IMG/VR virus record: IMGVR_UViG_3300025133_000260
Span: 1 to 40,739 of that record
From: a virus
DNA length: 40,739 nt
Strand: one strand, 5' to 3'
The notes beneath the pieces are model-generated. The model saw nothing but the letters and a program-made list of their open reading frames with translations. It searched no databases and was not told the origin of the DNA. The position numbers and the translations under genes were made by a program. Below are positions 11,842 through 40,486 of this stretch, piece by piece (the stretch's first letter is position 1; every line of letters starts with the position of its first letter).

Positions 11842-12406
11842 GGTTTCCACCGTGTTTTTCGATGATGTCCGCCGTCTCGGTCTTGACGTTCAATTCAGGA
11901 TTGGCCGCCTGCCGTTCGCGCAGGTGACGAGCGACAATATCCTTCCCTAACGTCACGCGTCTTTTGCGGGCTCGCTCCGGTCGCGCCGGGGCTTCCGCAT
12001 CCGTGACCTTGCACGAGCCCTCGCACGGTACGCCTCGTTCGATGCACCGCTCTTGGACTTCGCCTCGCGATTTCACAAACGCTTGTGGGTCGCCTTCGTC
12101 GTCGGCCAGGCCAGGTTGATAGAAGTCGCCCGGCATCGGCGTGTAGCCTTTGGCTTTCGCCTTGGCAACGATTCGTGCAAGCCCTGCTGGATCGTCGGCG
12201 AACTGCTTATCCAACGTGCCAACGCCCGCGAAGAATGTTGAGTCGGTGACACAGCCCGGCGCTTTCCCTGCCTTGGCCATTTCGCGCATTCGCTGCTTGT
12301 CCCTCGCGATCTGTTCGTCAGGCAGAGGCGGGTCGTACACCGTTTTGCCGGCGACGATGGTTGCGCGATAAGACACACCGTTGATTTTCGTAGTCCAACC
12401 AGCCAC
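11831..12406 (-). CDS. Hypothetical phage head protein, GTG start
   Basis: A 191-residue protein read from a GTG at 12406 (MAGWTTKING). AAGGAG lies 8-9 bases upstream, overlapping the end of the preceding gene. The longer frame from 12499 would overlap that gene by about 90 bases and is rejected. Residues 40-60 are helical and basic. Four Cys lie in two places: GKAPGCVTD, and the cluster RCIERGVPCEGSCKV. The C-terminus is basic (RARKRRVTLGKD). Unknown function; possibly a neck or head minor protein. Confidence 0.7.
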   Translation of the reverse strand: MAGWTTKINGVSYRATIVAGKTVYDPPLPDEQIARDKQRMREMAKAGKAPGCVTDSTFFAGVGTLDKQFADDPAGLARIVAKAKAKGYTPMPGDFYQPGLADDEGDPQAFVKSRGEVQERCIERGVPCEGSCKVTDAEAPARPERARKRRVTLGKDIVARHLRERQAANPELNVKTETADIIEKHGGNHVD

Positions 12407-23206: not shown

Positions 23207-23217
23207 GGACCGAAACG

Positions 23218-23454
23218 ATGGCCGAAGAATATCGCTACCCAACTGTAATTCACCCCGACGCCCTTTATGGCTTCCAACACCTGCGCAAAGAGATGGGTTT
23301 TGGCGAATCGCTACTCGCCCGAATCAAGAGCGAAGGCGGCGAAATCTACTACTACGGACGTGGCGCCTGCATCACCGGCGCCACGCTGATCGCGCACATT
23401 AAAAAACATGGTCGCAAGGAGCATCCGAACGCATCAAAACCCGTCGGTGGGTGA
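23218..23454 (+). CDS. Small excisionase-like protein
   Basis: A 78-residue protein starting MAEEYRYPTV, 11 bases after the recombinase stop. Its leader AGGACCGAAACG matches the start box of the early gene array. The pattern LRKEMGFGES, then YYYGRGACITGATLIAHIKK, looks like a small winged-helix or excisionase-like DNA-binding protein in which a basic, aromatic loop precedes a short helix. Translation is probably coupled to the recombinase. A directionality factor role is inferred from size and place. Confidence 0.65.
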   Translation: MAEEYRYPTVIHPDALYGFQHLRKEMGFGESLLARIKSEGGEIYYYGRGACITGATLIAHIKKHGRKEHPNASKPVGG

Positions 23455-28601: not shown

Positions 28602-28649
28602 CGCCAAGTGCCCGCCAAGTGCCCGCCAAGCGCTGGCCAAGTGCCCGCC
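28602..28649 (+). repeat. 11-bp tandem repeats, cluster 1
   Basis: Four consecutive 11-base units of the form CGCCAAGYGCC (28602, 28613, 28624, 28635) and a partial fifth. The phase of about one helical turn would place each unit on the same DNA face. Confidence 0.75.
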
Positions 28650-28756
28650 GCCCGGCTGCGTTCCACTCACCCGGCGATCGGCGCCACCCGGCGATCGACC
28701 TGCCACCCGGCGCCGGGGGCGATGGAGGCGCCAGCCCAGCTGCGATCGGCGCCACC

Positions 28757-28811
28757 CGGCAGGTGCCCGGCAGGTGCCCGCCAAGCGCCCGCCAAGTGCC
28801 CGCCAAGCGCT
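28757..28811 (+). repeat. 11-bp tandem repeats, cluster 2
   Basis: Five consecutive 11-base units, CGGCAGGTGCC twice and then CGCCAAGCGCC, CGCCAAGTGCC and CGCCAAGCGCT. Between clusters 1 and 2 are longer repeats of CACCCGGCGATCG. Confidence 0.72.
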
Positions 28812-28944
28812 GGCCATCCAAGACGCTGCGCAGCCGATTTTGGCGATCGTCGGGGGGTGTGTCAGAACTATTCGAGGTATTCTCAAATTATTCCCAAAAT
28901 AGTTCCACGTCGCCGAGCCCAGTATTCCAGGGGCTCAAATGGCC

Positions 28945-28977
28945 CGCCAACCGTTCGCCAACCGTTCGCCAACCGGT
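28945..28977 (+). repeat. 11-bp tandem repeats, cluster 3
   Basis: Three units, CGCCAACCGTT twice and CGCCAACCGGT, just before the promoter of the AAA+ gene. They are the same frame of repeat with AACC in place of AAGY. Confidence 0.75.
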
Positions 28978-28984
28978 CGCCGGG

Positions 28985-29012
28985 TTGTTTGGCTCAATAG
29001 AGACGCTAGGAT
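28985..29012 (+). promoter_or_regulatory. Promoter for the early gene array
   Basis: TTGTTT, 16 bases, TAGGAT. It lies 48 bases before the start of the AAA+ gene and after repeat cluster 3. Confidence 0.4.
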
Positions 29013-29041
29013 CGTCGATGAGGTTGTTGAGTTTTACTACT

Positions 29042-29060
29042 GACCAACGGAGTCGAAACG
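29042..29060 (+). promoter_or_regulatory. Gene-start box 1
   Basis: ACCAACGGAGTCGAAACG directly before ATG. It has the GGAG and GAAACG parts of the box but not the upstream CACACGTACCCC part. Confidence 0.6.
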
Positions 29061-29738
29061 ATGATTCAAGCGACTAGCAGCTGCCAACCACTATTCGAGG
29101 AATTCCGCCCCACCAGCTGGGAAGCGGTGATCGGCCAAGACGCAGCCCTTCGCAAGGTTGGCGCGATTCGTCGGCGCGGACTCGGCGGCCGCGCCTACTG
29201 GTTGTCGGGCAAAAGCGGAACGGGCAAAACAACGATCGCTCGACTATTGGCGGGAGAGTTTGCGGACGAATTCGCTATCGACGAATTGGACGCAGAGCGA
29301 CTGACAGCGACTCGCATTGCAACGGAGGAACGGCGGACAGCTGGCGCGCCGTTGGGCGGCAAGGGATGGGCGCTGATCATCAACGAAGCGCACGGGCTGT
29401 CAGCTAGCGCGATTCGTCAGCTGTTGACTTGGATCGAACGATTGCCAGCGCACGTCGTCCTGATTTTTACGACCACTCGCGAAGGTGAGGCTGACTTGTT
29501 TGGCTCCACGATCGACGCATCGCCCCTGCTTTCGCGTTGCGTGGAACTCGCGCTCACTTGCCAGGGACTCAGGAAAGCATTCGCCACGATGGCGCTCGCG
29601 ATCGCCAAACGCGCCGACTTGATCGACCCGGCGCTAACAGACTCAGACGCCAACAAGCGACTAGAGCGACTCGCCAAGGAAACCAGCAGCAACGCGCGAG
29701 CGATGCTACAGCAGATCGAGACCGGTTACCTACTTTGA
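29061..29738 (+). CDS. Clamp-loader-like AAA+ ATPase
   Basis: A 225-residue protein starting MIQATSSCQP. It has FEEFRPTSWEAVIGQ (the box before the P-loop in DnaX/RFC/RarA proteins), Walker A GKSGTGKT at 50-57, a Walker B of the form LIINEAH (residues 105-111) with Asn where most relatives have Asp, a sensor 1-like FTTTR, and SRC near 158 as an arginine-finger-like site. It stops after the lid, without the C-terminal domain of full clamp loaders. It is the first gene of the early array, next to the repeat-rich origin candidate. A replication or recombination ATPase is likely. Confidence 0.8.
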   Translation: MIQATSSCQPLFEEFRPTSWEAVIGQDAALRKVGAIRRRGLGGRAYWLSGKSGTGKTTIARLLAGEFADEFAIDELDAERLTATRIATEERRTAGAPLGGKGWALIINEAHGLSASAIRQLLTWIERLPAHVVLIFTTTREGEADLFGSTIDASPLLSRCVELALTCQGLRKAFATMALAIAKRADLIDPALTDSDANKRLERLAKETSSNARAMLQQIETGYLL

Positions 29739-29745
29739 ACCCAGG

Positions 29746-29789
29746 CGCCAGCAGGGCGCCAACCGCTCGCCAAGCGCCCGCCAAGCGCT
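29746..29789 (+). repeat. 11-bp tandem repeats, cluster 4
   Basis: CGCCAGCAGGG, CGCCAACCGCT, CGCCAAGCGCC and CGCCAAGCGCT follow each other without gaps, right after the AAA+ gene stop. This gap has no stem-loop of the kind found in the later gaps. Confidence 0.72.
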
Positions 29790-29820
29790 GGCCAGCGGTT
29801 GTATTCCTGCCACTTTCCAA

Positions 29821-29841
29821 CCCGTACCAGGAGTTGAAACG
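29821..29841 (+). promoter_or_regulatory. Gene-start box 2
   Basis: CCCGTACCAGG then AGTTGAAACG directly before the ATG at 29842. It contains the Shine-Dalgarno AGGAG. Confidence 0.75.
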
Positions 29842-30363
29842 ATGACACTACCCCGCGAACTCGAAACCGCGTCCACGCTCCACGCCGAGAATAACGATTG
29901 CGCCGTCAAAGCGCTGGCGATCGTCACCGGCGCCGACTATGCGACTGCCCACGCCGCCTTGGCCGCGGCAGGGCGCAAGCGAGGCAAAGGAACCACCCAG
30001 CCCCAGCAAATTGCAGCCCTGAAGCGACTCGGCTTCCAGCGAGTCGCGGCGCCGTACACGTCAAAGACCGTCAAGACCTTGGCCCGTGAGATGCGATGCG
30101 TCCCAGGCGTCTACACGGCGCACGTACGATCGCACGTCCTGGCGATCAAAGACGGCGCCGTCTTGGATTGGACAGCTGGACGCCAGCACCGCATGAAGGC
30201 GCTCTACCGGATCGTCCCGATCGACGGCGCCAAGTTCGACCCGTTCAAACGCCAACAAACGCTAGGCGTTGCCCTGCCAACAGCTGGACCCCGCGCACCT
30301 CGCCCCAAGTCGGCGCCACGTCGGCGAGGAGTCGCGACCGCTACCCAGCTGCGACTGTTCTAG
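29842..30363 (+). CDS. Papain-like cysteine protein with C-terminal clamp motif
   Basis: A 173-residue protein starting MTLPRELETA. NNDCAVKALAI (C20), SHVLAIKDG (H98) and VLDW (D109) give a Cys-His-Asp order and spacing like small C39/papain-like phage proteins (a C20 helix, then Y..H..A..DG). The C-terminal 40 residues are Arg/Pro/Ala-rich and the last five residues are QLRLF, an exact match to the bacterial sliding-clamp binding consensus QLxLF. It may bind DnaN. A protease or deamidase-like activity is possible. Substrate unknown. Confidence 0.65.
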   Translation: MTLPRELETASTLHAENNDCAVKALAIVTGADYATAHAALAAAGRKRGKGTTQPQQIAALKRLGFQRVAAPYTSKTVKTLAREMRCVPGVYTAHVRSHVLAIKDGAVLDWTAGRQHRMKALYRIVPIDGAKFDPFKRQQTLGVALPTAGPRAPRPKSAPRRRGVATATQLRLF

Positions 30364-30383
30364 CCCCCGGCGCCTACGGGCGC

Positions 30384-30419
30384 CCTACTGGCTGGCGTCG
30401 CCCGACGCTGTCCAGTAGG
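30384..30419 (+). promoter_or_regulatory. Intergenic stem-loop
   Basis: An outer 8-bp stem (CCTACTGG with CCAGTAGG) encloses an inner GCGTC-GCCC-GACGC hairpin. A smaller GGCGCC-TACG-GGCGCC hairpin precedes it at 30369-30384. Confidence 0.6.
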
Positions 30420-30433
30420 CTGCCAACAGGGAG

Positions 30434-30463
30434 CCACACGTACCCGTACCAGGAGTTGAAACG
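30434..30463 (+). promoter_or_regulatory. Gene-start box 3
   Basis: CCACACGTACCCGTACC then AGGAGTTGAAACG. This is nearly the full consensus. Confidence 0.8.
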
Positions 30464-30955
30464 ATGACACGACCAACGCACCCCCGTGAAGCCTTCGCCG
30501 GTATCCACCGCAACCCCGCCAGTGATGAATTGTGCCAGCTGGCCGCACGATACCGCCAAGAGAAAGACGACTTGACCCCCCGTGAGCGAGAGGCTGACCT
30601 CAGGGAAATTGCCCACGCCAGCATCGACGCCAAATTCCACCGCGAGCAGGGCGCCGAGAATTACCCACGAACCACTCGCGCCGGAAAGATGCCGGAACAG
30701 TCGCTGCGATCGCAGGAGTACACGCCCCGCCAGCTGGAGCGGTTGGCCGCCGAGGTTTGGCGACGCATGACAGCTGGCGACGGCTACCAGCAGTTTGGAT
30801 ACGATCGCCCAACGCTGGCGATGACGCACCCCCGCTGGCTTGTCATCATCGACGCAATGGAACGCGTCTACATTGACGCCAAGGCTACGCACGATGCCGA
30901 AGAAGACGCCGCTAACGAATTACCGTACGCCCCGAACCAGCTTAGCCACTACTAA
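30464..30955 (+). CDS. Hypothetical early protein
   Basis: A 163-residue protein starting MTRPTHPREA. It is helical and charged (LCQLAARYRQEKDDLTPRER) with many Arg, Glu and Ala residues and only one Cys. QLERLAAEVWRRMTAG reads as an amphipathic helix. No known family. It is preceded by a full start box and followed by a stem-loop. Confidence 0.7.
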   Translation: MTRPTHPREAFAGIHRNPASDELCQLAARYRQEKDDLTPREREADLREIAHASIDAKFHREQGAENYPRTTRAGKMPEQSLRSQEYTPRQLERLAAEVWRRMTAGDGYQQFGYDRPTLAMTHPRWLVIIDAMERVYIDAKATHDAEEDAANELPYAPNQLSHY

Positions 30956-30964
30956 GCCGAGCCC

Positions 30965-31011
30965 CCAAGCCGAGAGGCGCCAGGCGTAGCACCCCGGCGC
31001 ACCTCCCTTGG
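30965..31011 (+). promoter_or_regulatory. Intergenic stem-loop, CCAAG/CTTGG type
   Basis: Outer CCAAG and CTTGG, inner GAGGCGC pairing with GCGC-ACCTC, which has a bulge. The loop contains CAGGCGTAGCACCCC. Confidence 0.6.
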
Positions 31012-31019
31012 CGACTTTG

Positions 31020-31053
31020 CCACACGTACCCCCACCCCCGAGGACTTGAAACG
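31020..31053 (+). promoter_or_regulatory. Gene-start box 4
   Basis: CCACACGTACCCCCACC then CCCGAGGACTTGAAACG before the ATG at 31054. This is a variant in which GAGGAC replaces AGGAG. Confidence 0.78.
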
Positions 31054-31401
31054 ATGACACGCCCAAAGATCAGCACAGAAGACGCGCGACACATCGCCAG
31101 CAACCCCGACGGCTGCGAGGAAACCGACCTGCGAGCGCTTGCCGCATACATCGGCACCGGCTGCCGACCGACCTCGCAAGCAGCTGCATTGTGGCCCAAC
31201 GAATACGTTGAGCAGATCGACGGCTACCAGCCGACGGCGCCCGTTGGCCGGTTGCACGTTGCCCAGCAAATTCGCGCATACTGCCACAACGCAGCAACGG
31301 CGCGAGACTGCCGCAAACGAGGCAAGATTCAGACCGCCTTGCAATATGAGGCAATCTGCGATCACCTCTACCAGCGCTTGCCAGCATGGGCGCAATGGTA
31401 G
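31054..31401 (+). CDS. Hypothetical early protein
   Basis: A 115-residue protein starting MTRPKISTED. It contains four Cys (GCEET, GTGCRP, AYCHNA, DCRKR and later ICDHL) and helical stretches (EETDLRALAAYIGTG, YEAICDHLYQRL). A zinc-stabilised fold is possible. No family recognised. Confidence 0.68.
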   Translation: MTRPKISTEDARHIASNPDGCEETDLRALAAYIGTGCRPTSQAAALWPNEYVEQIDGYQPTAPVGRLHVAQQIRAYCHNAATARDCRKRGKIQTALQYEAICDHLYQRLPAWAQW

Positions 31402-31413
31402 GACACGCGGCGC

Positions 31414-31451
31414 CCGTTCCCGCTGCCCTGACTGCCAGGGCGGCGCAACGG
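31414..31451 (+). promoter_or_regulatory. Intergenic stem-loop
   Basis: CCGTT pairs with AACGG and encloses GCCCTG-ACTGC-CAGGGC. Confidence 0.5.
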
Positions 31452-31474
31452 TTGCCGATTGTCAGCCACCCACC

Positions 31475-31499
31475 CACCCGTACCAGGAGAGTTGAAACG
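31475..31499 (+). promoter_or_regulatory. Gene-start box 5
   Basis: CACCCGTACCAGGAGA then GTTGAAACG before the ATG at 31500. One extra GA sits between the Shine-Dalgarno and GTTGAAACG. Confidence 0.75.
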
Positions 31500-31895
31500 A
31501 TGAGACACGCTATCAGCTACAAAACGGTAGCCTACCGCGAAGGCGCCGCAACACGAGTCACCAGCAGGCGATTGGCCAATGCGACGCGAGCGTTGCGACG
31601 CGAGCGGGAGAAGCGACCGCTATTCGCCGCCCAGCTGGCCCAAGAGCAGGAGACGCCCGAAGCGCGTATTCTGGCGATCGCCACCGCTGCAATAGAGCAA
31701 GAGCAGCGGTTTCGCGACCTCGCCGCGAGACACTGGCGAGAAGCACGGGCGCGACTGGCTGCGATGCCAGACGAGAAACGGGCGCAGCTGCTAGCCCTAT
31801 GGGAGACGAGTTTTTGCCCACCAGATGCCAGCTACTTTGCCGACTACACCCGCAACGCTGACAAGATATTGGCGAGGCGAGCCAGGCGCGGTTAG
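31500..31895 (+). CDS. Hypothetical Arg-rich helical protein
   Basis: A 131-residue protein starting MRHAISYKTV. It is almost wholly alpha-helical and Arg/Ala/Glu-rich (TRALRREREKRPLFAAQLAQ, RHWREARARLAAM) and ends RRARRG. There are no visible catalytic motifs. The high charge suggests nucleic-acid or ribosome contact. Start chosen at the box; an upstream ATG at 31386 would put the box inside the gene. Confidence 0.68.
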   Translation: MRHAISYKTVAYREGAATRVTSRRLANATRALRREREKRPLFAAQLAQEQETPEARILAIATAAIEQEQRFRDLAARHWREARARLAAMPDEKRAQLLALWETSFCPPDASYFADYTRNADKILARRARRG

Positions 31896-31904
31896 TCGAG
31901 TCCC

Positions 31905-31945
31905 CCAGCCGCGCGGCGCTGCGATCCAGCAGCGCCTCGCCCTTG
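31905..31945 (+). promoter_or_regulatory. Intergenic stem-loop
   Basis: Inner stem GGCGCTGC with GCAGCGCC around a GATCCA loop. The outer CCAAG/CTTGG is reduced to CCAG and CTTGG. Confidence 0.65.
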
Positions 31946-31954
31946 GCGACTTTG

Positions 31955-31984
31955 CCACACGTACCCCTACCAGGAGTTGAAACG
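31955..31984 (+). promoter_or_regulatory. Gene-start box 6
   Basis: CCACACGTACCCCTACC then AGGAGTTGAAACG before the ATG at 31985. Identical to the box at 35258-35287. Confidence 0.82.
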
Positions 31985-32248
31985 ATGACCAACGCAATCA
32001 CACGCAACGCCCGACGCACCAAGGTGCGGCTAGTTGTCAGTCTGCAACGCGAACTTGGCGACATCGCGAAATTGATCGAGGCTGAGAAGTACGAAGACGC
32101 CTACTATGACCTCGACCACACCGCCGAAGGCGTCAAGACGCTCGACGCGTGGCTACGTGAACGGCTCGACGGATCGCGTCTAGCTTGCCCCGATTGCGGG
32201 CATGTCGAGTGTGACTGTGCCGATCCTATCGTGCCCGATTGCGGTTAG
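31985..32248 (+). CDS. Small helical protein with C-terminal Cys cluster
   Basis: An 87-residue protein starting MTNAITRNAR. The first 60 residues are helical (LVVSLQRELGDIAKLIEAEK). The last 25 contain CPDCGH, ECDCAD and PDCG, a probable zinc-binding cluster. This resembles small zinc-ribbon tails of nucleic-acid-binding proteins. No family recognised. Confidence 0.68.
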   Translation: MTNAITRNARRTKVRLVVSLQRELGDIAKLIEAEKYEDAYYDLDHTAEGVKTLDAWLRERLDGSRLACPDCGHVECDCADPIVPDCG

Positions 32249-32256
32249 CCGAGCCC

Positions 32257-32303
32257 CCAAGCCGAGAGGCGCCAGGCGTAGCACCCCGGCGCCTCGCCCT
32301 TGG
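32257..32303 (+). promoter_or_regulatory. Intergenic stem-loop, CCAAG/CTTGG type
   Basis: Outer CCAAG with CTTGG and inner GAGGCGCC with GGCGCCTC, 8 bp perfect, around a 15-base loop. The loop is nearly the same as in the stem-loop at 30965-31011. Confidence 0.7.
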
Positions 32304-32311
32304 CGACTTTG

Positions 32312-32345
32312 CCACACGTACCCCTACCCCCGAGGACTTGAAACG
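32312..32345 (+). promoter_or_regulatory. Gene-start box 7
   Basis: CCACACGTACCCCTACC then CCCGAGGACTTGAAACG before the ATG at 32346. It has the same GAGGACTTGAAACG variant as box 4. Confidence 0.8.
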
Positions 32346-32717
32346 ATGACGAACGAACGAAACGCGAGATTCTGGGTACTTTGGAATGGCCAGCATACGA
32401 AAATCACGCTGCGGCCAAATCAAGCCTTGACGATGCACCAGAGCGCCCCGACCGACGAGGGTTGGAGCAGCGAGACGCAGACGTACCGACTTGAAGACGG
32501 AACGGTCTATTGTGAACTCACAAGCGACGGGCGCGACTGCGACGGGCGCTTGAGCAGCGCCGCAGACTTTCTTTGCCCCGTCGGCGATCTGCGACTGCAG
32601 ACCCGCACCCAGTTGATCGGTGACTACATCGACGGCGCCGAGCAAATCAGCGTACCAGTTTGGGACAAAGAAGGCTCCCGCCAACGCGACTACAGCGCCG
32701 AGGCTTGCGGCTACTAA
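32346..32717 (+). CDS. Hypothetical early protein
   Basis: A 123-residue protein starting MTNERNARFW. It is a mixed alpha-beta protein with VLWNGQHTKITLRPNQAL and SSETQTYRLEDGTVYCELTS stretches reading as a beta sheet, then SVPVWDKEGSRQRD, ending EACGY. Several Asp and Cys residues are present but in no clear motif. No family recognised. Confidence 0.68.
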   Translation: MTNERNARFWVLWNGQHTKITLRPNQALTMHQSAPTDEGWSSETQTYRLEDGTVYCELTSDGRDCDGRLSSAADFLCPVGDLRLQTRTQLIGDYIDGAEQISVPVWDKEGSRQRDYSAEACGY

Positions 32718-32722
32718 CCGCC

Positions 32723-32755
32723 CGCCAACGTACCGCCAACCACCCACCAACCGAG
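32723..32755 (+). repeat. 11-bp tandem repeats, cluster 5
   Basis: CGCCAACGTAC, CGCCAACCACC and CACCAACCGAG fill the gap between two early genes, in place of the usual stem-loop. The last unit runs into the GAGGACCGAAACG start box. Confidence 0.65.
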
Positions 32756-32765
32756 GACCGAAACG
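32750..32765 (+). promoter_or_regulatory. Gene-start box 8 (short form)
   Basis: ACCGAGGACCGAAACG before the ATG at 32766. The CACACGTACCCC part is missing. Confidence 0.65.
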
Positions 32766-32954
32766 ATGACGCAGCAATTTCTAAACGCAGCAACCGGCGC
32801 CCTAGTCGAAGCAATCGACGGCGCGACGTTGGCCGAGTTGAAAGCCGCCAAGAGCCAGGCGCACGACAACTCGCAAGACTTTGCACTACCTGCCAGCGAG
32901 CGCCGCCTATGGGGCGACCTCCGGCAGCTGATCACCTCGCACATCAACCGCTAA
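32766..32954 (+). CDS. Small hypothetical early protein
   Basis: A 62-residue protein starting MTQQFLNAAT. Two amphipathic helices (ALVEAIDGATLAELKAAKSQ and RRLWGDLRQLITSHIN) suggest a helical hairpin. No motif or family is recognised. It is preceded by repeat cluster 5 and a short start box. Confidence 0.65.
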   Translation: MTQQFLNAATGALVEAIDGATLAELKAAKSQAHDNSQDFALPASERRLWGDLRQLITSHINR

Positions 32955-32967
32955 GAGCGCGAGCAGT

Positions 32968-33004
32968 CAAGCCGCGAGGCGTTCCCGCGAACGCCTCGCC
33001 CTTG
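32968..33004 (+). promoter_or_regulatory. Intergenic stem-loop
   Basis: Inner GAGGCGTTC with GAACGCCTC, 9 bp perfect, with a CCGC loop. Outer CAAG with CTTG. The arm sequences differ from those at 32257-32303, yet pairing is kept. Confidence 0.7.
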
Positions 33005-33017
33005 ACCACTTCCGCAA

Positions 33018-33038
33018 CCCGTACCAGGGGATGAAACG
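33018..33038 (+). promoter_or_regulatory. Gene-start box 9
   Basis: CCCGTACCAGGGG then ATGAAACG directly before the ATG at 33039. The usual CAGGAGTTGAAACG is changed to CAGGGGATGAAACG. Confidence 0.7.
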
Positions 33039-34103
33039 ATGAAAGCAGACAGCGACCACTACGCGCCCCAACCGTTGGAGCGTTACACCGTTGGCCCGCA
33101 CGAACTGATCAGGTTCGGCGGCTTGCGGCCCGTCCCGCTTGGCCGAGTCCGTTCGCTTGCTGCGACGATCCAGCCGCGAGACTACCCGCGACCAACGCAC
33201 GACCGCCAGCGGCTAACGTTTGCGATCGGCGGCGGGACCGACAGCACCGCCATGATATTGGCGGCGCACGATCGAGGCATACGCCCCGACCTGTTGACGC
33301 TGGCCGACACCGGGAGCGAACGCCCCGCCACCTATCGATTTGTCAGCCAGATATTGCAGCCGCTCTTGGAACGGCTCGACTGGCCCCCGCTGGTAATCGT
33401 CCGCAGGCGTTGCCCGATCGCGGGACACCGCAGCTATTTTGAGCAGCTATGGTCAACAGAGCAGCTGCCAAGCCCCGCGTTCCCCCGCAAGGGCACAGGG
33501 CGAGCGCTTCACAGCTGCAGCGACAGTTGGAAGGTAAAGCCGCAGCGAGCCTACCAAGCCGCGCTAGGATGGCTTTGGGACTACGACCACGCTCAGGCAA
33601 TCCAGGCGATCGGCTTTGACGCCGACGAAGTACACACCCGCAAGGGCGCTGGCCAAGTGGTCGAGGGTATCGGGTTTGACGTTGGCGAAGTCAACGAACG
33701 CGCGAGCCTACGCTATGGCGTGGACAATTGCACCGATTATCGCCAGTGGTACCCGTTGGCCGATTGGGGAATGAGCCGCGCCGATTGCATGGCGTTGATC
33801 GCCGAACACGGCTTGCCCCAGCCCGGCAAGAGCGCCTGCTTTTTCTGCCCTGTCAGCAAACTATGCGAAGTCGCGACGATGGGCGACGACGCCCGCGCCG
33901 CCGCTCGCGAATTAGAGACGCGATACCAGGACGGCAAGAACTACCAGGGCGCCACCAAGGGCCTAGCGATTGACAAGACTTGGGACCAGTGGCAGGAGAC
34001 CGGGACCATCAAGCCGGGCCTGGGCTTGTTGGCCGAGCCGACACCCGAGCCGACCTATACCGACTTCGCGGCAGCTGCCGACGCGCAGGGCTTGCTGTTC
34101 TAA
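33039..34103 (+). CDS. PAPS-reductase-like ATP pyrophosphatase with clamp motif
   Basis: A 354-residue protein starting MKADSDHYAP. The P-loop-like GGGTDST (64-70) and LADTGSERP (88-96) are the ATP-pyrophosphatase and PAPS-reductase/DndC signatures. Cys at 160 (HSCSD), 267 and 270 (ACFFCPVSKLC) can bind an Fe-S cluster or zinc. Proteins of this group activate or reduce sulfur substrates, and DndC acts in DNA phosphorothioation; phages also carry members of unknown substrate. It ends AQGLLF, a QxxLF clamp-type motif, and is next to a DUF6884-like gene with the same kind of ending. No other Dnd genes are visible, so phosphorothioation is not claimed. Confidence 0.75.
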   Translation: MKADSDHYAPQPLERYTVGPHELIRFGGLRPVPLGRVRSLAATIQPRDYPRPTHDRQRLTFAIGGGTDSTAMILAAHDRGIRPDLLTLADTGSERPATYRFVSQILQPLLERLDWPPLVIVRRRCPIAGHRSYFEQLWSTEQLPSPAFPRKGTGRALHSCSDSWKVKPQRAYQAALGWLWDYDHAQAIQAIGFDADEVHTRKGAGQVVEGIGFDVGEVNERASLRYGVDNCTDYRQWYPLADWGMSRADCMALIAEHGLPQPGKSACFFCPVSKLCEVATMGDDARAAARELETRYQDGKNYQGATKGLAIDKTWDQWQETGTIKPGLGLLAEPTPEPTYTDFAAAADAQGLLF

Positions 34104-34126
34104 CCCGTACCAGAGGACTCGAAACG
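34103..34126 (+). promoter_or_regulatory. Gene-start box 10
   Basis: ACCCGTACCAG then AGGACTCGAAACG before the ATG at 34127. The box starts within the previous gene's stop codon and there is no stem-loop, so these two genes form a tight pair. Confidence 0.75.
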
Positions 34127-34630
34127 ATGACACACCAACGCACACTTTGCCTAGTCGCTTGCAGCGCCACCAAGGGCGCCGCTGGCCCCGCTCGCGAGCT
34201 TTACACTGGCCCGCTATTCCAGGCAGCCAGACGCCACGCAGAGGCGCGAGGCTATCACTGGCGGATTCTGTCAGCCAAGCACGGCTTGCTGCGGCCTGAT
34301 GCCGTCGTGCTGCCCTACGATCAGCGACTAGAGAAGGGGCGCGAAGGCGCGAAGGCCGACACCTGGGGGCGCACGCTGGTGAAGCCTTCGCTTTGCTGGC
34401 TCGCCCGCACGGAGCAGATCGATCGCGTGATATGGTTCGCGGGCGCCGACTACCGCGACGCGTTGCACGGTTGGCGGCGCTGCCACGACATCGAGACGCG
34501 CCGCGCTTGGATACCGTGCAGCTGCGGCGCGCGAGTAGTCCACGAGTACCCGCTGGCGGGCTTGGCGATCGGCCAGCAACTGGGTTGGTTCAAGCAACGG
34601 CGAGAGGACGCGCAAACGTTGCTGTTTTGA
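34127..34630 (+). CDS. DUF6884-like protein with clamp motif
   Basis: A 167-residue protein starting MTHQRTLCLV. The order VACSATK (10-16), PARELYTGPLF (21-31), ILSAKHGLL (47-55), PYDQ and YR..L..W fits the DUF6884 pattern (C..K, LY...F, SA.HGLL, PYD). DUF6884 is similar in pattern to a domain next to archaeosine transglycosylases and has been discussed with 7-deazaguanine DNA modification; I am not sure of that link. It ends AQTLLF. It is fused in context to the PAPS-reductase-like gene by a box overlapping its stop. DNA base modification is a hypothesis only. Confidence 0.68.
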   Translation: MTHQRTLCLVACSATKGAAGPARELYTGPLFQAARRHAEARGYHWRILSAKHGLLRPDAVVLPYDQRLEKGREGAKADTWGRTLVKPSLCWLARTEQIDRVIWFAGADYRDALHGWRRCHDIETRRAWIPCSCGARVVHEYPLAGLAIGQQLGWFKQRREDAQTLLF

Positions 34631-34651
34631 CCGACCAGGGCGCACCGTCGC

Positions 34652-34688
34652 CCACTTGCCGCGCTTGATCGCCAGGCGCAGCAAGTGG
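34652..34688 (+). promoter_or_regulatory. Intergenic stem-loop
   Basis: CCACTTGC pairs with GCAAGTGG around a 21-base loop. A second small hairpin, TGGCCA-ACGC-TGGCCA, follows at 34686-34701. Confidence 0.55.
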
Positions 34689-34703
34689 CCAACGCTGGCC
34701 AGA

Positions 34704-34730
34704 CACCCCTACCCCTACGGAGTTGAAACG
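34704..34730 (+). promoter_or_regulatory. Gene-start box 11
   Basis: CACCCCTACCCCTACGGAG then TTGAAACG before the ATG at 34731. Confidence 0.75.
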
Positions 34731-35198
34731 ATGACGAGACTTGAAAAAATGATCGCCCAACGGCTAAGCGCCGCCGTCGAGTTGATCGCAGACGCCCGCA
34801 AACTGGCGGCCAATGGCGACGACCAGCAACGCGCCGACGACTTGACAGAGTTGGCCGGACGCGCCCAAACGCTGGCGATCAGGAACGGCGCCCCCCAGCG
34901 AGTTGACGAAGACCCCGCCTTGATTGCAATTCGCGACGTTGGCCAAGCGATCGGGCTGGACATCGGACTAGACGCCGCCGCCCTATACGAGCAGCTGACC
35001 GAAGACGAGCGCGAGCGGTTCGCAGACTTCGAGGGGACGCACCAACGGTATCGCCTCGCCAAGCTGTTGACGGTGACAGTCGTCAACAGCGGACGAGTCG
35101 AACGCCAATTCGGCGCACCAGTCAACACGCCCGAGCAGAAGCGAAACGCCCGCGAGGCGAAACGGCTCGAACGCGTACGCCTTCGCCCCAGCAACTAG
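34731..35198 (+). CDS. Hypothetical helical early protein
   Basis: A 155-residue protein starting MTRLEKMIAQ. It is strongly helical and Ala/Arg/Glu-rich (QRLSAAVELIADARKLA, DDLTELAGRAQTLAI, LYEQLTEDERERFADFEG) and basic at the C-terminus (REAKRLERVRLRP). It has no Cys and no motif. Unknown function. It is the longest all-helical protein of the array. Confidence 0.65.
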   Translation: MTRLEKMIAQRLSAAVELIADARKLAANGDDQQRADDLTELAGRAQTLAIRNGAPQRVDEDPALIAIRDVGQAIGLDIGLDAAALYEQLTEDERERFADFEGTHQRYRLAKLLTVTVVNSGRVERQFGAPVNTPEQKRNAREAKRLERVRLRPSN

Positions 35199-35206
35199 CC
35201 GAGGCC

Positions 35207-35249
35207 CCAAGCCGCAGGGCGCTGCGATCCAGCAGCGCCCCGCCCTTGG
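35207..35249 (+). promoter_or_regulatory. Intergenic stem-loop, CCAAG/CTTGG type
   Basis: Outer CCAAG with CTTGG. Inner GGGCGCTGC with GCAGCGCCC, 9 bp perfect, with loop GATCCA. The stem at 31905-31945 has a matching loop but a different first pair, kept complementary. Confidence 0.72.
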
Positions 35250-35257
35250 CGACTTTG

Positions 35258-35287
35258 CCACACGTACCCCTACCAGGAGTTGAAACG
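35258..35287 (+). promoter_or_regulatory. Gene-start box 12
   Basis: CCACACGTACCCCTACC then AGGAGTTGAAACG before the ATG at 35288. Confidence 0.82.
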
Positions 35288-35845
35288 ATGAGACACGGCA
35301 CGAAAACGATCGTAATCACGACGCCCGCAGCAGCTGACGCGATGCTAGCCCACCTGGAGCAATGCGAGCAGTCCGCGCGAGTCGACGACTACGCCAGCGA
35401 ACGCGCAAAGCCGATCAAGTGGCTCGACTGTACTTGTTGCGGCGGCGGCCTACAGGGGCGCGATTGGTGGAATCAAGAGCCCGGCTATGGACTCTGCGAC
35501 GACTGCGCGCCGCGTTGCTGCGGACCAATCGCAGCTGGCGAAGAGTCATCAACGTATGGCGTCGCCGGGATTCACTACCTCATCACGAAGGCCGAACGCG
35601 ACAACCCGCCGCTATGCGAGGATCGAGGCGAACCGCTCTACGGAATCGATGAGCGGTTGCGGATCGAATACGACGGGTTTGTCTACTGGAAAGGGCGACA
35701 GATCGAACACTACGACGGGTCAGCCTTGCACGACACCGACCAGAACAAGAGCGGAGCGCGCGAGCTAATCCAGCGGTGCGAGACGATCGAAGCGAGAGGG
35801 GAAGAGGTTAACACAACGTCGGTGATTTGGCGTTGGGAAGGCTAA
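35288..35845 (+). CDS. Hypothetical Cys-rich early protein
   Basis: A 185-residue protein starting MRHGTKTIVI. A Cys cluster DCTCCGGG near residue 50, then GLCDDCAPRCCG near 75, can bind zinc as a double knuckle. The following GVAGIHYLI, RLRIEYDGFVYWKGRQIE and EEVNTTSVIWRW read as a beta-rich domain. No family recognised. It could be a nucleic-acid-binding protein. Confidence 0.68.
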   Translation: MRHGTKTIVITTPAAADAMLAHLEQCEQSARVDDYASERAKPIKWLDCTCCGGGLQGRDWWNQEPGYGLCDDCAPRCCGPIAAGEESSTYGVAGIHYLITKAERDNPPLCEDRGEPLYGIDERLRIEYDGFVYWKGRQIEHYDGSALHDTDQNKSGARELIQRCETIEARGEEVNTTSVIWRWEG

Positions 35846-35860
35846 CACCCGTGCGAGCTT

Positions 35861-35898
35861 CCAAGCCGCGACGCGCCACGGCGGCGCGTTGCCCTTGG
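35861..35898 (+). promoter_or_regulatory. Intergenic stem-loop, CCAAG/CTTGG type
   Basis: Outer CCAAG with CTTGG. Inner GCGACGCGCC with GGCGCGTTGC, 10 pairs including one G-U, around a five-base loop. Confidence 0.68.
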
Positions 35899-35918
35899 CC
35901 GCTTCCACTCTGGACGCG

Positions 35919-35950
35919 CCACACGTACCCACTTTGAAAGGTTTGAAACG
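35919..35950 (+). promoter_or_regulatory. Gene-start box 13
   Basis: CCACACGTACCCACTTTG then AAAGGTTTGAAACG before the ATG at 35951. AAAGG replaces AGGAG, but GAAACG and CACACGTACCC are kept. Confidence 0.75.
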
Positions 35951-36427
35951 ATGACGAACGAACACACGCCGCTCAGCTGGTTCGAGGCTTGCAAGAAGGC
36001 CGCCGAGAATTACCGCGCCGGACGCTTCGAGCTTTACCCGATCACCCACGAGGCGTATTGGTGGGGCTTAGGTTGCGTTCCGCCAGCGATCCAGAAAGGC
36101 GGCGCGTTCTTGTGCGGCGAGCCCTACACGCACACGATCGACGAGCAAGGGCGCGAGCGAGGCGTCTACGCCTACGCCGCTGAATTGTCCGAGGGGAAAT
36201 ACTACGGCGGCGCGTTGCTGACGATCCCCCAGGCGCGAGCGCTGACCGGCGCGGAGTTGTGGGCGGCGATCGACGCGCCGATATTGGCCGCGATCATCGC
36301 CAGGCGCGACGGGCGGGCGCTGGAGGCGTTCTGTATTACTCGCACGCACGCGAAGGTGATTGCAGCCGCCAAGGCGGGAGGAATCGACGGCGGCGAGCTT
36401 GACGAGCAGCTGCAAGCGATCAGCTGA
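35951..36427 (+). CDS. Hypothetical early protein, possibly DUF1419-like
   Basis: A 158-residue protein starting MTNEHTPLSW. The N-terminal part has YPITHEAYWWGLGCVPPAIQ and GGAFLCGEPYTH, a W..L..PP......F..GE pattern loosely resembling plasmid DUF1419 proteins, then YYGGALLTIPQAR and helices (AELWAAIDAPILAAIIAR). The resemblance is weak and unconfirmed. Function unknown. Confidence 0.65.
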   Translation: MTNEHTPLSWFEACKKAAENYRAGRFELYPITHEAYWWGLGCVPPAIQKGGAFLCGEPYTHTIDEQGRERGVYAYAAELSEGKYYGGALLTIPQARALTGAELWAAIDAPILAAIIARRDGRALEAFCITRTHAKVIAAAKAGGIDGGELDEQLQAIS

Positions 36428-36447
36428 CCGCCACGCGTAGCAACCCC

Positions 36448-36474
36448 ACGGGCGCCGCGATCGGCGGCGCCCGT
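36448..36474 (+). promoter_or_regulatory. Intergenic stem-loop
   Basis: ACGGGCGCCGC with GCGGCGCCCGT, 11 bp perfect, with loop GATCG. Confidence 0.65.
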
Positions 36475-36489
36475 CGATGTTCCTATTCG

Positions 36490-36512
36490 CACCACTTTGA
36501 AAGGTTGAAACG
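36490..36512 (+). promoter_or_regulatory. Gene-start box 14
   Basis: CACCACTTTG then AAAGGTTGAAACG before the ATG at 36513. It shares the AAAGG variant with box 13. Confidence 0.72.
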
Positions 36513-36932
36513 ATGAGACTAGAGCAACGCGAAGCGTACAACGCACGGCGGGACCACATGAGCTACCCGCCGATCCCAGACGCCACCGAGTTCCAGAATC
36601 AACGCCCGCCCTACGACCGCGAGCCCGTAACCGTTCACGGTTGGCAATGGTCGACGACGTTCGGCAAATGGTCGGCGCTGGTCACGTTCAAGAACGGTTG
36701 GCGCGGCTTCACCTACCCCGACCACGCCGAGAAGCACGACGGCGCGAGGTATATCGTTGGCGTGACGATCGGACGCAAGGACCGCGACAGCGGACAATAC
36801 CAAGTTCAGGCATGGGACCAGCACGGCAAACGCTGGCCGGACGCGGACTATTTCACCGACGACCGCGAAGACGCCCACGCGACAGCTGACGCAATGATTA
36901 TGGATTCTCTCGCCCAACAGCAAGGAGCGTAA
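36513..36932 (+). CDS. Hypothetical early protein
   Basis: A 139-residue protein starting MRLEQREAYN. The middle (VHGWQWSTTFGKWSALVTFK, NGWRGFTYPDH) and YIVGVTIGRKDRDSGQYQVQ suggest a five-strand sheet. The C-terminus is helical (EDAHATADAMIMDSL). No motif or family recognised. The following gene starts three bases after its stop, with its ribosome site inside this gene. Confidence 0.65.
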   Translation: MRLEQREAYNARRDHMSYPPIPDATEFQNQRPPYDREPVTVHGWQWSTTFGKWSALVTFKNGWRGFTYPDHAEKHDGARYIVGVTIGRKDRDSGQYQVQAWDQHGKRWPDADYFTDDREDAHATADAMIMDSLAQQQGA

Positions 36933-36934
36933 CG
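36921..36934 (+). promoter_or_regulatory. Gene-start box 15 (diverged)
   Basis: CAAGGAGCGTAACG before the ATG at 36935. TAACG replaces GAAACG, and the box sits in the end of the previous gene. Confidence 0.5.
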
Positions 36935-37267
36935 ATGCGCACACCAACCACAACCGACGCCCGCGAAGGCTTTGCCGCCCTCGCTGAGTTGATCGTCAGC
37001 CGCAACACCGCCGAAGGGTTCGCCACCAGCACGGGCGCCACACGGCGAGACGTTGAGCCTAGCGAGTTTATGCTGATGGCTTGCAACGACACTGAGCAGC
37101 AGTACAAGCACCGCCAGACGCGAAACTACGTCTACTTACGGCGATCGATCCCAGGCGACGCGTGGCGGCTCCACGTCGCCGCGACGCGTCACGCGTTCAA
37201 CCAAGGCGAGTTTGACGCCCCGCCCACGTTGGCCGAACTTGAAGCACTACTATCAATCAAGGAGTAG
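36935..37267 (+). CDS. Hypothetical early protein
   Basis: A 110-residue protein starting MRTPTTTDAR. It is helical and charged with EGFAALAELIVSRNTA, RRDVEPSEFMLMACND, and YVYLRRSIPGDAWRLHVAATRH near residue 66. Its start follows the previous gene by three bases, so the two are coupled. No family recognised. Confidence 0.63.
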   Translation: MRTPTTTDAREGFAALAELIVSRNTAEGFATSTGATRRDVEPSEFMLMACNDTEQQYKHRQTRNYVYLRRSIPGDAWRLHVAATRHAFNQGEFDAPPTLAELEALLSIKE

Positions 37268-37279
37268 CCCCACCCCGCA

Positions 37280-37304
37280 CCCGTTCCCCAAATGGCGGGA
37301 CGGG
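37280..37304 (+). promoter_or_regulatory. Intergenic stem-loop
   Basis: CCCGTTCCC with GGGACGGG, with one bulged T, around an 8-base loop. Confidence 0.5.
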
Positions 37305-37324
37305 CGCGGCGCTGGCGTTATTTT

Positions 37325-37348
37325 CACCCCTACCCAAGGAGCGACACG
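37325..37348 (+). promoter_or_regulatory. Gene-start box 16 (diverged)
   Basis: CACCCCTACCCAAGGAG then CGACACG before the ATG at 37349. GACACG replaces GAAACG. Confidence 0.55.
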
Positions 37349-37822
37349 ATGAACGAGCGACAATTCTTAGGCGAACTCCGCGCACGCTGGACCGCCGCAC
37401 GGACTGAGTCGGAACAGGCGGGCGGCGGCATGATCGGCGTGATGGTCGATACCGGGCTCGTTGCCTGGATCGACGACCAGCTGCACGCCAACCCCGAGCC
37501 TCGCAAGGGCGAGACGATGCAAGCCGCCCGCGATCGGATGCGAGAGACGCTTGTGTGCTGGCATATGGACGAGGTCACCGACAGGGACGAAGCAGGAGTG
37601 TACGCCGATCGGTTTCTAGCGAGGCTGGCCAGCGAGGGGCTTAGTATCGTGGACGGCGGGACAATGGGCGAAATCGCACACACGCTCGACCGATACGATA
37701 CCGAGGTCAAACCACTGCGGACGGCGGCGGACGGCGGCGAGGCGTACGACAAGGCGTATAACGTCCTGCTAGAAGGATTGCACGGACAATGCGCCATTTT
37801 GTGTAGCACGGGAAGCGAATAA
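37349..37822 (+). CDS. Hypothetical early protein
   Basis: A 157-residue protein starting MNERQFLGEL. It has GMIGVMVDTGLVAWIDDQ, MRETLVCWHMDEVTDRDE, RFLARLASEGLSIVDGG and a C-terminal DKAYNVLLEGLHGQCAIL segment. The alternation of helices and short strands, with conserved-looking Asp and Gly, suggests a small globular protein. No family recognised. It lies between two stem-loop-bearing gaps. Confidence 0.63.
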   Translation: MNERQFLGELRARWTAARTESEQAGGGMIGVMVDTGLVAWIDDQLHANPEPRKGETMQAARDRMRETLVCWHMDEVTDRDEAGVYADRFLARLASEGLSIVDGGTMGEIAHTLDRYDTEVKPLRTAADGGEAYDKAYNVLLEGLHGQCAILCSTGSE

Positions 37823-37847
37823 CTACTATAGTCACGGATGAACAACC

Positions 37848-37872
37848 TACCCACGTACCAGGAGCTGAAACG
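37848..37872 (+). promoter_or_regulatory. Gene-start box 17
   Basis: TACCCACGTACC then AGGAGCTGAAACG before the ATG at 37873. It is preceded by a TATAGT that has no clear -35. Confidence 0.75.
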
Positions 37873-38364
37873 ATGAGACGACGACAGCCCGAATTGTTCC
37901 CCGCATCCGCGCTCACGTTTGGGGCGGTAATAGCCCGCAAAACACGGGAAACCGAAGAGGAACAGGACGAACACCAAAACCACTTCGCCGACGGCAGCCC
38001 CAAGCTGAACCACGCGCAGTCACTGCTGACCAAAGCACAGCTGGACGCCATCCCGCCGCTGATGCTCTTCGCCAGGAAAGGGCGGGAGGCGATCGCTCAC
38101 GTCAAATTCTTCGGCGCGGGCTTTACTTGGTTCGCGACCGAGTACGACCCCTCAGAAGGGCTGTTTTTCGGGCTGGTCTACAACGCCGCAATGGCCGACC
38201 AATGCCCCGACGGAGAGTTAGGCTACTTCGCAGCGTCTGAGTTATGCAGCGGCAAACGATCGCGTTGGCTCACGAGCGGCCAGCAGGTAGGCACCCAGAG
38301 CGTCGAACGCGACAACCACTGGGACGCCAAGACACTGCGGGAGATTATCGCCAAAGAACTGTAA
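37873..38364 (+). CDS. DUF2958 protein with N-terminal clamp motif
   Basis: A 163-residue protein starting MRRRQPELFPAS. Residues about 50-150 have LLTKAQLDAIPPLM, VKFFGAGFTWFATEYDP, FFGLVYNAAM and GELGYFAASELCSG, the characteristic order of DUF2958 proteins (vKlF...tW..tEyDp....fGlv.....ELGYF...EL). DUF2958 is frequent on plasmids and phages and has no known function. QPELF at 5-9 fits the QxxLF clamp pattern, but so near the start it may be chance. It is the last boxed gene of the array. Confidence 0.78.
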   Translation: MRRRQPELFPASALTFGAVIARKTRETEEEQDEHQNHFADGSPKLNHAQSLLTKAQLDAIPPLMLFARKGREAIAHVKFFGAGFTWFATEYDPSEGLFFGLVYNAAMADQCPDGELGYFAASELCSGKRSRWLTSGQQVGTQSVERDNHWDAKTLREIIAKEL

Positions 38365-38677: not shown

Positions 38678-40486
38678 ATGATTACTGATTCTAAACGGCG
38701 GGACGCCCGCCGCAAGCGCGTCATTCTCTATTTGAGGATGAGTAGCGACCAACAAGACACGTCGATCGACATTCAGCGCCAGCGATTGCAAGATCGGCTG
38801 GCGAAAGAGAATGTTGAAATTGTTGGCGAATATGTCGACGAGGGGTGCAAGGGCTGGGACGATCGCCGGCAGCACGAACTCGCCTTGAAAGCCATTGAGC
38901 GAGGCGAAGCTGACGCGGTCGCCGTTTATCAACAGTCGCGATTCACTCGCAAAAAGCCGCTCAAAGCAATGGCGGACTTCGCCCGACTCGAAGAGGTCGG
39001 CGCCGAGTTTTTCACCATCGACAACGGTTGGGTATCACTCGACGATATTGGCGGGCTGGTGGGTGTCATGGTCAAAAGCCATCAGGACCACCAGTTTTGC
39101 CACGACCTCAGCGCGCTAGTCTATGACGGCCATAGGGACGTTGCCGAGAAGGGCTTGCACGTCACGGGGCGCCCGCCGTTGGGACTGGCCGTCAATGATG
39201 ATCGGCAATATATCCTGGGTCCAACCGAGGAACGACGTTTAGTCAGAACGATCTTTGATCTTTACGAGCGGTTGGGTTCGCTGCGCCAACTCGTGATTGA
39301 GTTGAACGGACGAGGCAAGCGGACCCGTGACGGCGCGAAATGGTCGCGAGCCACTGTCGAGCGGCTATTGAAAAACCCCAAGCTGAAGGGCGTCTATGTT
39401 TGGGGCGCCGAGGCGAACCCCAAGCGCGAGAATCGCAAGTTTCGCAAACGGCGGGAGCCGATCTTGAAGCGGACTAATCATCCGGCTGTCATCGAGCCTA
39501 AGCAGTTCGATCGTGTGCAACGCAAACTGACCCGCAACAAACGCCAAACGACGCCCAGCGGCGCACGCAAACTATTCACGATGACGGGACTTGCACGCTG
39601 TGGATACTGCGGCGCCGCGATGCATGGAACCTCACTCCGCAACCAGCTGAAGTCGCTGCGGTATGCTTGCCGTCGCCACGGCAGTGAGGGGAGTTGCCCC
39701 GGCTGCGACCACAGCAATTCTGTTCGCCAGGGCGACCTACTAGATGTCGTGATTACGCTGCTGGAAGCCCACTTCTTGAGCCCTGATCGACTGGACGCGT
39801 ACCGCGAACGGGCGCTGGAATTCCTCCAAGCCGAGTTCGTCGACCCCAAGGAATTGAAGGCGCGAGCCGTCCGACTCAAAACTCAGGTCCGGCGCGCAAG
39901 GGAAGAATACGAAGACTTAGTCGAGGAATCAGACGACCGCGACGAGGTGCGCAGTGCCCGCCAGCGATGGCGCAATAAGAAGCAAGAATTGGCCGAGGCA
40001 ACGGCGATGCTAGAAAGCGGCTGCATCGACGAAGCCGAAATCGAATCCCAGGTGGACGCCGAGTTGGCCGAAATGACGGCGGACTATTCCGAGATACGCC
40101 GAGCGTTCGACGAGGAAGACACCGAATCACTGCGACGGCTATTCGCTGACTTGATCGCCGACGAGGGGCTGCGCGTATGGGCTGGCCACGACGGCGACGC
40201 CCCAAAGGGCTCGCAATACTGGATTGAAAAGGTGGAAGTCGACTTAAAGTCGCGGTCAGACTTGTCCCAGTCAATCACTTCGCCGGGACAAGTCTGGACA
40301 CTGAGTGTCACGCCGGAACGACTGCTAGGCAGTGACGATGTCATCGAGATTCTGGACGTGTCGCGGCGGACGTTTGCCCGCTGGATGGAACGCGGCTGGC
40401 TGTCGCCCGTCGAGCGTCGGCAGACCGGGCGCCCGCTCAAATTCCGACACGCCGAGGTTATGGAGGCTGCACGGCTGCACGGCTAA
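38678..40486 (+). CDS. Large serine integrase with C-terminal winged-helix fusion
   Basis: A 602-residue protein starting MITDSKRRDA, with AGGAG 9 bases upstream. The catalytic domain has YLRMSSDQQ (S22 nucleophile), SRFTRKKP (R88 and R91) and GVMVKSHQDHQ. The recombinase domain follows with GRPPLGLAV, and a zinc ribbon with CGYC, CRR and CPGCD at about 309-347. A long coiled coil (about 380-470) completes the usual layout. The last 54 residues (SDDVIEILDVSRRTFARWME, then GRPLKFRHAEVMEAARL) form a MerR/excisionase-like winged helix, absent from typical large serine integrases. It integrates or excises the phage at att sites. It may contain its own directionality control. Confidence 0.88.
   Translation: MITDSKRRDARRKRVILYLRMSSDQQDTSIDIQRQRLQDRLAKENVEIVGEYVDEGCKGWDDRRQHELALKAIERGEADAVAVYQQSRFTRKKPLKAMADFARLEEVGAEFFTIDNGWVSLDDIGGLVGVMVKSHQDHQFCHDLSALVYDGHRDVAEKGLHVTGRPPLGLAVNDDRQYILGPTEERRLVRTIFDLYERLGSLRQLVIELNGRGKRTRDGAKWSRATVERLLKNPKLKGVYVWGAEANPKRENRKFRKRREPILKRTNHPAVIEPKQFDRVQRKLTRNKRQTTPSGARKLFTMTGLARCGYCGAAMHGTSLRNQLKSLRYACRRHGSEGSCPGCDHSNSVRQGDLLDVVITLLEAHFLSPDRLDAYRERALEFLQAEFVDPKELKARAVRLKTQVRRAREEYEDLVEESDDRDEVRSARQRWRNKKQELAEATAMLESGCIDEAEIESQVDAELAEMTADYSEIRRAFDEEDTESLRRLFADLIADEGLRVWAGHDGDAPKGSQYWIEKVEVDLKSRSDLSQSITSPGQVWTLSVTPERLLGSDDVIEILDVSRRTFARWMERGWLSPVERRQTGRPLKFRHAEVMEAARLHG

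Follow-up and report, generated by a model that had tools for sequence, protein, structure and literature searches.

A start-associated intergenic cassette repeated through a phage module that appears to be exchanged as a set

Introduction

Start-associated repeats have remained unexplained since 2011 and, in the literature that we found, are discussed almost only for one group of mycobacteriophages. The start-associated sequences (SAS) of cluster K mycobacteriophages contain AGGAG, are locked to the starts of non-structural genes only, lie in large intergenic gaps and are absent from the hosts (PMC3203893), and their extended forms (ESAS) contain putative SigA promoters (PMC11373665). The class I and class II intergenic repeats of halovirus HF2 contain motifs rich in AT and acted as promoters when tested (PMC8707807). 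Here we describe a start-associated repeat in 40,739 nucleotides of an uncultured phage (IMG/VR record IMGVR_UViG_3300025133_000260, positions 1 to 40,739; hereafter the window), in which a conserved box with the consensus AGGAGTTGAAACG followed by ATGA stands directly before 17 genes between 29061 and 37873. The elements named PeSL in T4-type phages, which reportedly combine an early promoter with a stem-loop and are said to have a proposed link to module shuffling, also bear on this comparison.

The box resembles the cluster K SAS in being a short asymmetric repeat with AGGAG directly before the starts of many unrelated genes, confined to the non-structural half with its large gaps, nearly absent from prokaryote genomes and conserved beyond ribosomal RNA (rRNA) pairing. 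Its 16-17 copies, all on the plus strand and all within 29061-37873, fall within the SAS copy range (11-19, one orientation) and, as in ESAS, a subset of copies has an extended upstream part with inverted repeats. The sequences, however, have AGGAG alone in common, the SAS being a 13-bp element, GGGATAGGAGCCC, with at most two deviations. ESAS carry imperfect 17-bp inverted repeats whose arm changes break pairing, together with a SigA-like promoter, whereas the cassettes described below have a covarying RNA hairpin and no convincing sigma-70-like site. In cluster K, moreover, one SAS serves most subclusters and, for the most part, an element goes with its gene phamily, while here homologous genes differ in their box. 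The likeness to PeSL lies in a repeated intergenic stem-loop cassette between small unrelated non-structural genes, linked to module shuffling; unlike PeSL, no sigma-70 consensus was seen here and the conserved part is the Shine-Dalgarno (SD) and start box. The HF2 repeats are likewise virus-specific, intergenic and placed before many genes, but here the repeat consists of a GC-rich hairpin and an SD.

A first-pass annotation of this stretch had proposed an SAS-like system. This is supported for a start-locked repeat that is confined to one block and is very unlikely to be a general start context. The sequence is different: the system works like the mycobacteriophage SAS and is not one of them. 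The planctomycete host and the early character of the genes, which that annotation had also assumed, gained no positive evidence here. It looks like a second, sequence-unrelated start-associated system of the same layout, and the phenomenon thus looks convergent. What it adds to SAS is an RNA hairpin with compensatory changes and homologous genes that carry different boxes on what is apparently the same backbone; the latter argues against explanations by host ribosome context or by individual genes, and the question of what the boxes do becomes testable with simple reporter swaps. On balance, we lean towards a standardised post-transcriptional start cassette, uniform within an exchangeable non-structural module (29.0-38.4 kb) and probably swapped with it as a set.

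A start box that reaches beyond the Shine-Dalgarno sequence

ACG directly precedes ATG at all 17 gene starts of the stretch 29061-37873 and GAAACG-ATG is found at 15 of them, the count given by the first-pass annotation; the two others read GTAACG (36935) and GACACG (37349). The motif GAAACGATG occurs 17 times in the window, on the plus strand only, against 0.58 copies expected (at most 4 in 100 shuffles), and 15 of these copies are gene starts of the stretch. The boxes at 31955 and 35258 are identical, as had been noticed. We also carried out the position matrix scan that had been suggested, using positions -14 to +4. In 65.7 kb, made up of the window and 25 kb to its left from record G003, this matrix found 16 matches, every one a boxed gene start (0.05 expected from mononucleotide shuffles). 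Pairwise identity over the 13 nt in front of ATG averages 0.75 among the boxed starts and 0.30 among the 41 other starts of the same phage; none of 2000 permutations reached the value of the boxed starts. The proteins encoded downstream have no mutual similarity, in agreement with the earlier view that the boxed genes are unrelated.

The box had been described as two-part, covering the SD and stopping at the start codon. The start half does cover the SD (the consensus being an SD with a fixed spacer), but a complete CACACGTACC half is present in no more than about six copies and the similarity passes the start codon. An A at +4 is present at 16/17 boxed starts and 19/41 others (p = 8e-4), and the likeness over +4 to +12 is 0.42 in boxed genes compared with 0.29 in other genes (0/5000 permutations). 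This conserved stretch, from the box into codons 2-4, matches, we infer, the region covered by an initiating ribosome. The SD duplex is of ordinary strength (-7.8 kcal/mol vs -7.3 in other genes), and the most invariant bases of the box, a near-invariant AACG at -4 to -1, do not pair with 16S rRNA. The box is therefore more than a strong SD, and we rejected that explanation.

The repeat is a whole intergenic cassette with a covarying hairpin

While the box is real, the repeat is larger than first described: it comprises the entire intergenic region from stop codon to start codon (~85-105 nt), including a hairpin half that had been missed. The order is stop codon, hairpin, a C-rich and G-poor leader, SD, TTGAAACG and ATGA. 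In the leader, at -28 to -14, C makes up 50% and G 9% of the bases, compared with 26% and 25% elsewhere. Two pairs of cassettes are nearly identical from stop codon to start codon, those at 30955-31058 and 32247-32350 (96%) and those at 31893-31988 and 35196-35291 (94%). The 60-nt flanks of these duplicates are only 20-30% identical, so that the limits of the duplication are the stop and start codons themselves. Almost every gene of the block 29.0-38.4 kb has its own start cassette, and the median intergenic length is 89 nt in the block vs -1 in the structural genes.

Six cassettes have a common outer stem, CCAAG/CTTGG, and inside it a GC stem that varies in sequence with its pairing kept. In their alignment, 92.9% of cells are paired and 6/14 pairs have changed on both sides; this covariation was equalled in 1/500 shuffles, and slid controls gave 32-50%. 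Five more cassettes have stems of their own with weaker covariance-model scores. Altogether the model recovered 11 long cassettes at E < 0.01 and no match that strong outside the cassettes in the 133 kb scanned. The intergenic regions have a mean minimum free energy of -33.4 kcal/mol vs -20.9 for coding segments and a GC content of 0.73 vs 0.67. For most cassettes, the predicted fold is also more stable than those of dinucleotide-shuffled versions of the same sequence (z -1.4 to -5.3). The hairpins have no U-tract, and no Rfam family matched above its gathering score in the window.

A sister phage carries homologous genes behind a different box

A search with the portal protein found three records with 100% identical portals. 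One of them, the sister phage G001 (IMGVR_UViG_3300006927_000035), matches the window perfectly between 18727 and ~28900 and with a single mismatch in the 22.4 kb of window positions 2724-25153. It departs abruptly from the window at ~29014, shortly ahead of the first boxed gene and its SD: at this junction (28980-29014, plus strand), the upstream sequence is identical, two single-nucleotide polymorphisms (SNPs) fall within ~10 nt, and divergence sets in ~30 nt before that SD. Beyond it, the sister continues with the same module in diverged form. Its homologous genes come in the order seen in the window and encode proteins 59% (clamp-loader-like), 52% (homologue of gene 29842) and 69% (homologue of gene 31985) identical to those of the window. 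Three window genes (30464-31500) are absent from the sister and further sister genes are absent from the window, the order being conserved. The module has a GC content of 0.635, compared with 0.575 in the backbone. Upstream of the junction, in a GC-rich region, there is an AT-rich patch (28865-28905) with a perfect 8-bp inverted repeat, GAACTATT/AATAGTTC (28865-28872/28898-28905). Patch and inverted repeat are identical in the sister, hence upstream of both module types, and look like a candidate common promoter or operator.

The six gene starts visible in the sister module share another box, CACGGAGATTGATC-ATGA (box B; three exact copies and three variants), preceded by the same kind of hairpin (z -2.5 to -3.8) and C-rich leader. 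The box of the window (box A) was not found in the sister stretch, nor box B in the window. GGAG-(N)-TTGA is common to the two boxes and would allow a longer duplex with the 3' end of 16S rRNA, but next to ATG they differ, with AACG in box A and TC in box B. Three homologous genes have box A in the window and box B in the sister; the boxes of one module are thus alike, and those of the homologous module differ from them as a set. The box accordingly belongs to the module rather than to the gene family and, if the joins are real, would not be a property of the host either. These three homologues contradict the simple form of the earlier suggestion that genes may be shuffled along with their start signals.

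Two further observations concern the genes of the two phages. Gene 31985 (31985-32248) looks hybrid: its N-terminal part is like one sister gene and its C-terminal 26 amino acids are 77% identical to another (sister counterparts at 11782-12165 and 12616-12873 of L040), as if a deletion had fused the two. Outside the module, a backbone gene reads AAGGACCGAAACG-ATGG at 23205-23220 in both phages, a lone box-like start.

Elsewhere, the system is hardly to be found. An 18-mer of the box, searched in 2.9 million viral contigs (IMG/VR), matched only inside a coding stretch in a phage group of 33% GC, and the two-part box pattern had no match. The DNA of the box A cassette had no match in the phages or plasmids searched, and that of the box B cassette matched only a 28-nt coding stretch in Caulobacter phages. 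Among relatives reached through the PAPS-reductase-like gene, the serine integrase and the clamp loader, no other boxed phage was found, and record G004, whose portal is 43% identical, has no common box among its predicted gene starts.

A possible role at the mRNA level and its alternatives

We propose that the cassette acts on the mRNA. Its hairpin would mark off or protect the upstream cistron (a role at the 3' end of that cistron is our guess), and leader and box would set initiation at each start, so that the genes of one long transcript would get comparable initiation rates, independent of their neighbours. Recombination between copies would keep them alike (concerted evolution), and related phages would exchange whole modules at the control region that they have in common upstream of 29014. 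Four observations favour action on the RNA: conservation is highest around the start codon, the hairpin is kept by compensation, no convincing sigma-70-like promoter was seen, and both modules lie behind the same upstream patch. An effect on translation or transcript fate had already been suggested at first pass and still seems to fit best with a start-locked box with an SD, conservation into codons 2-4 and a covarying hairpin. It is tempting to go further and imagine a module-specific 'dialect', in which a module-encoded factor (protein or RNA) would recognise the spacer at every start, GAAACG here and of GATC type in the sister, and so switch up to 17 genes together as one regulon, and modules of different dialects would replace each other in otherwise identical phages; we consider this unlikely.

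Several points weigh against a post-transcriptional start cassette as we picture it. At several boxed genes the hairpin is slight or missing, and the sister module is visible for six gene starts only. Shuffling the hairpin leaves the predicted accessibility of the ribosome-binding site unchanged (0.504 vs 0.498, p = 0.39); we had entertained insulation of this site by the hairpin and dropped it on this result. A promoter of another type could, finally, sit inside the cassette.

This last point leads to a promoter or operator array, in which each gene would be its own transcription unit behind a terminator-like hairpin followed by a repressor site or by a promoter read by host or phage polymerase. 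The putative SigA promoters of ESAS (PMC11373665) and the HF2 repeats that drive a reporter (PMC8707807) are precedents, a hairpin followed by a conserved leader has the order of terminator and promoter, and the long intergenic regions give room. The stretch nevertheless holds 5 sigma-70-like sites where 2.5 are expected by chance, no clear excess, and none within the cassettes is convincing; in the single match there, at 34723, the TTGAAA is that of the box, and its partner, which is not conserved, lies inside the gene. TTGAAA as a -35 element was not supported on inspection, nor was a sigma-54 -24/-12 pair, for which the spacing is wrong, and none of the genes examined was recognised as encoding a phage RNA polymerase. 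The lack of U-tracts does not suit terminators, stems that vary in sequence with pairing kept are not expected of an operator, and conservation that peaks at -6 to +4 around the start codon is not at promoter distance. We hold such an array to be a doubtful possibility. Far less credible is the view that the box is the host's ordinary ribosome start context, which the first-pass annotation had named as the finding that would overturn its proposal. The box does contain an SD, and box B could lengthen the pairing with the 16S 3' end (GGAG..TGATC), but 41 other starts in the same phage lack the box, homologous genes in the sister carry another one, and its 20-base core has two single matches in 84,980 prokaryote genomes, which is chance level. 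We regard this view as very improbable.

The repeats might also persist mainly as homology islands for the recombinational gain, loss and swapping of genes, with any role in expression secondary. Gene content does differ between the two modules within a conserved order, the GC content of the block stands out from that around it, gene 31985 resembles a fusion of two sister genes, and cassettes of unrelated genes can be 94-96% alike. Boxes do not, however, travel with single genes, the sole module boundary observed precedes the first box and is not within a cassette, and pure islands need neither a lock on the start codon nor hairpin covariation; we judge this improbable as the main explanation. 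An integron-like array, in which a gene and its hairpin would form a mobile cassette with an attC-like site, would account for one gene per variable hairpin in a single orientation. Its probability is negligible in our view, as 0 RYYYAAC...GTTRRRY sites were found in 16 intergenic regions, none of the genes examined proved to encode a tyrosine integron integrase, and the similarity continues to the next start codon. An assembly chimera concerns the backbone more than the box: if the A or the B module had been misjoined to it, we would be dealing with two phages that have only a control region in common. Perfect identity ends abruptly just after two SNPs, the third record, G003, breaks near the junction (window position 28537), and 11-nt repeats are present at 28603-28970. 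Against a misjoin, the last conserved bases before the two modules are the same, and both modules open with homologous genes in the same order and are internally consistent. Even with a wrong join, the difference in box between homologous genes would hold, whereas the common backbone would not. We consider a chimera unlikely, though it deserves to be kept in mind.

Boxes and cassettes along the module

All boxes and cassettes lie on the plus strand, and genes are named here by their start position. The first box, AACGGAGTCGAAACG-ATG (29045-29063), precedes the clamp-loader-like AAA gene 29061-29738 and is without a hairpin cassette. Double hairpins are found in the cassettes of genes 29842 (29739-29844; leader and CAGGAGTTGAAACG-ATG, z -3.5), 30464 (30364-30466; CACACGTACCCGTACC leader and CAGGAGTTGAAACG-ATG, z -2.8) and 34731 (34631-34733; C-rich leader and box, z -3.2). 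The cassette of gene 31054 (30956-31056) has the CCAAG-type hairpin and forms the first near-identical pair with that of gene 32346 (32249-32348). Gene 31500 has the same layout with a different stem (31402-31502; z -3.8). The full boxes of genes 31985 (cassette 31896-31987) and 35288 (35199-35290) belong to the second pair, the latter being identical to the box at 31955. The cassette of gene 33039 (32955-33041) folds into a perfect hairpin with compensatory changes in both outer and inner stem (z -5.3). Two further genes have no hairpin, 32766 with a short leader and box (32718-32768) and 34127 with a minimal box (34104-34129). Towards the end of the module, the cassettes of genes 35951 (35846-35953) and 36513 (36428-36515) represent the AAAGGTTTGAAACG and AAAGGTTGAAACG subtypes. 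The weakest box, AAGGAGCGTAACG-ATG (36921-36937), overlaps the end of the preceding gene and has a leave-one-out score of 10.8. The cassette of gene 37349 (37268-37351) ends in AAGGAGCGACACG-ATGA, and gene 37873 has a leader and box, CACGTACCAGGAGCTGAAACG-ATGA (37823-37875).

Surroundings of the module

Tandem iteron-like repeats of 11 nt (GCCAAGTGCCC / GCCAAGCGCTG / GCCAACCGTTC) occur at 28603-28646, 28780-28812, 28946-28967 and 29758-29790, that is, immediately upstream of and within the start of the module, and are possible origin or regulator sites. The window encodes two serine recombinases (22073-23206 and 38678-40486). One has an extra N-terminal HNH/endonuclease VII-like stretch and the other is a large serine integrase of 602 amino acids directly after the module; each of them might be involved when modules are exchanged. 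Within the module, the PAPS-reductase-like protein (phrog_424, 33039-34103) adjoins a DUF6884 protein (34127-34630), a possible nucleic-acid modification pair. The record that extends the window on its left (G003, IMGVR_UViG_3300006754_000025) adds 25 kb, for a genome of at least 65.7 kb, and encodes a protein of 2119 amino acids with a HETSH metallopeptidase-like motif.

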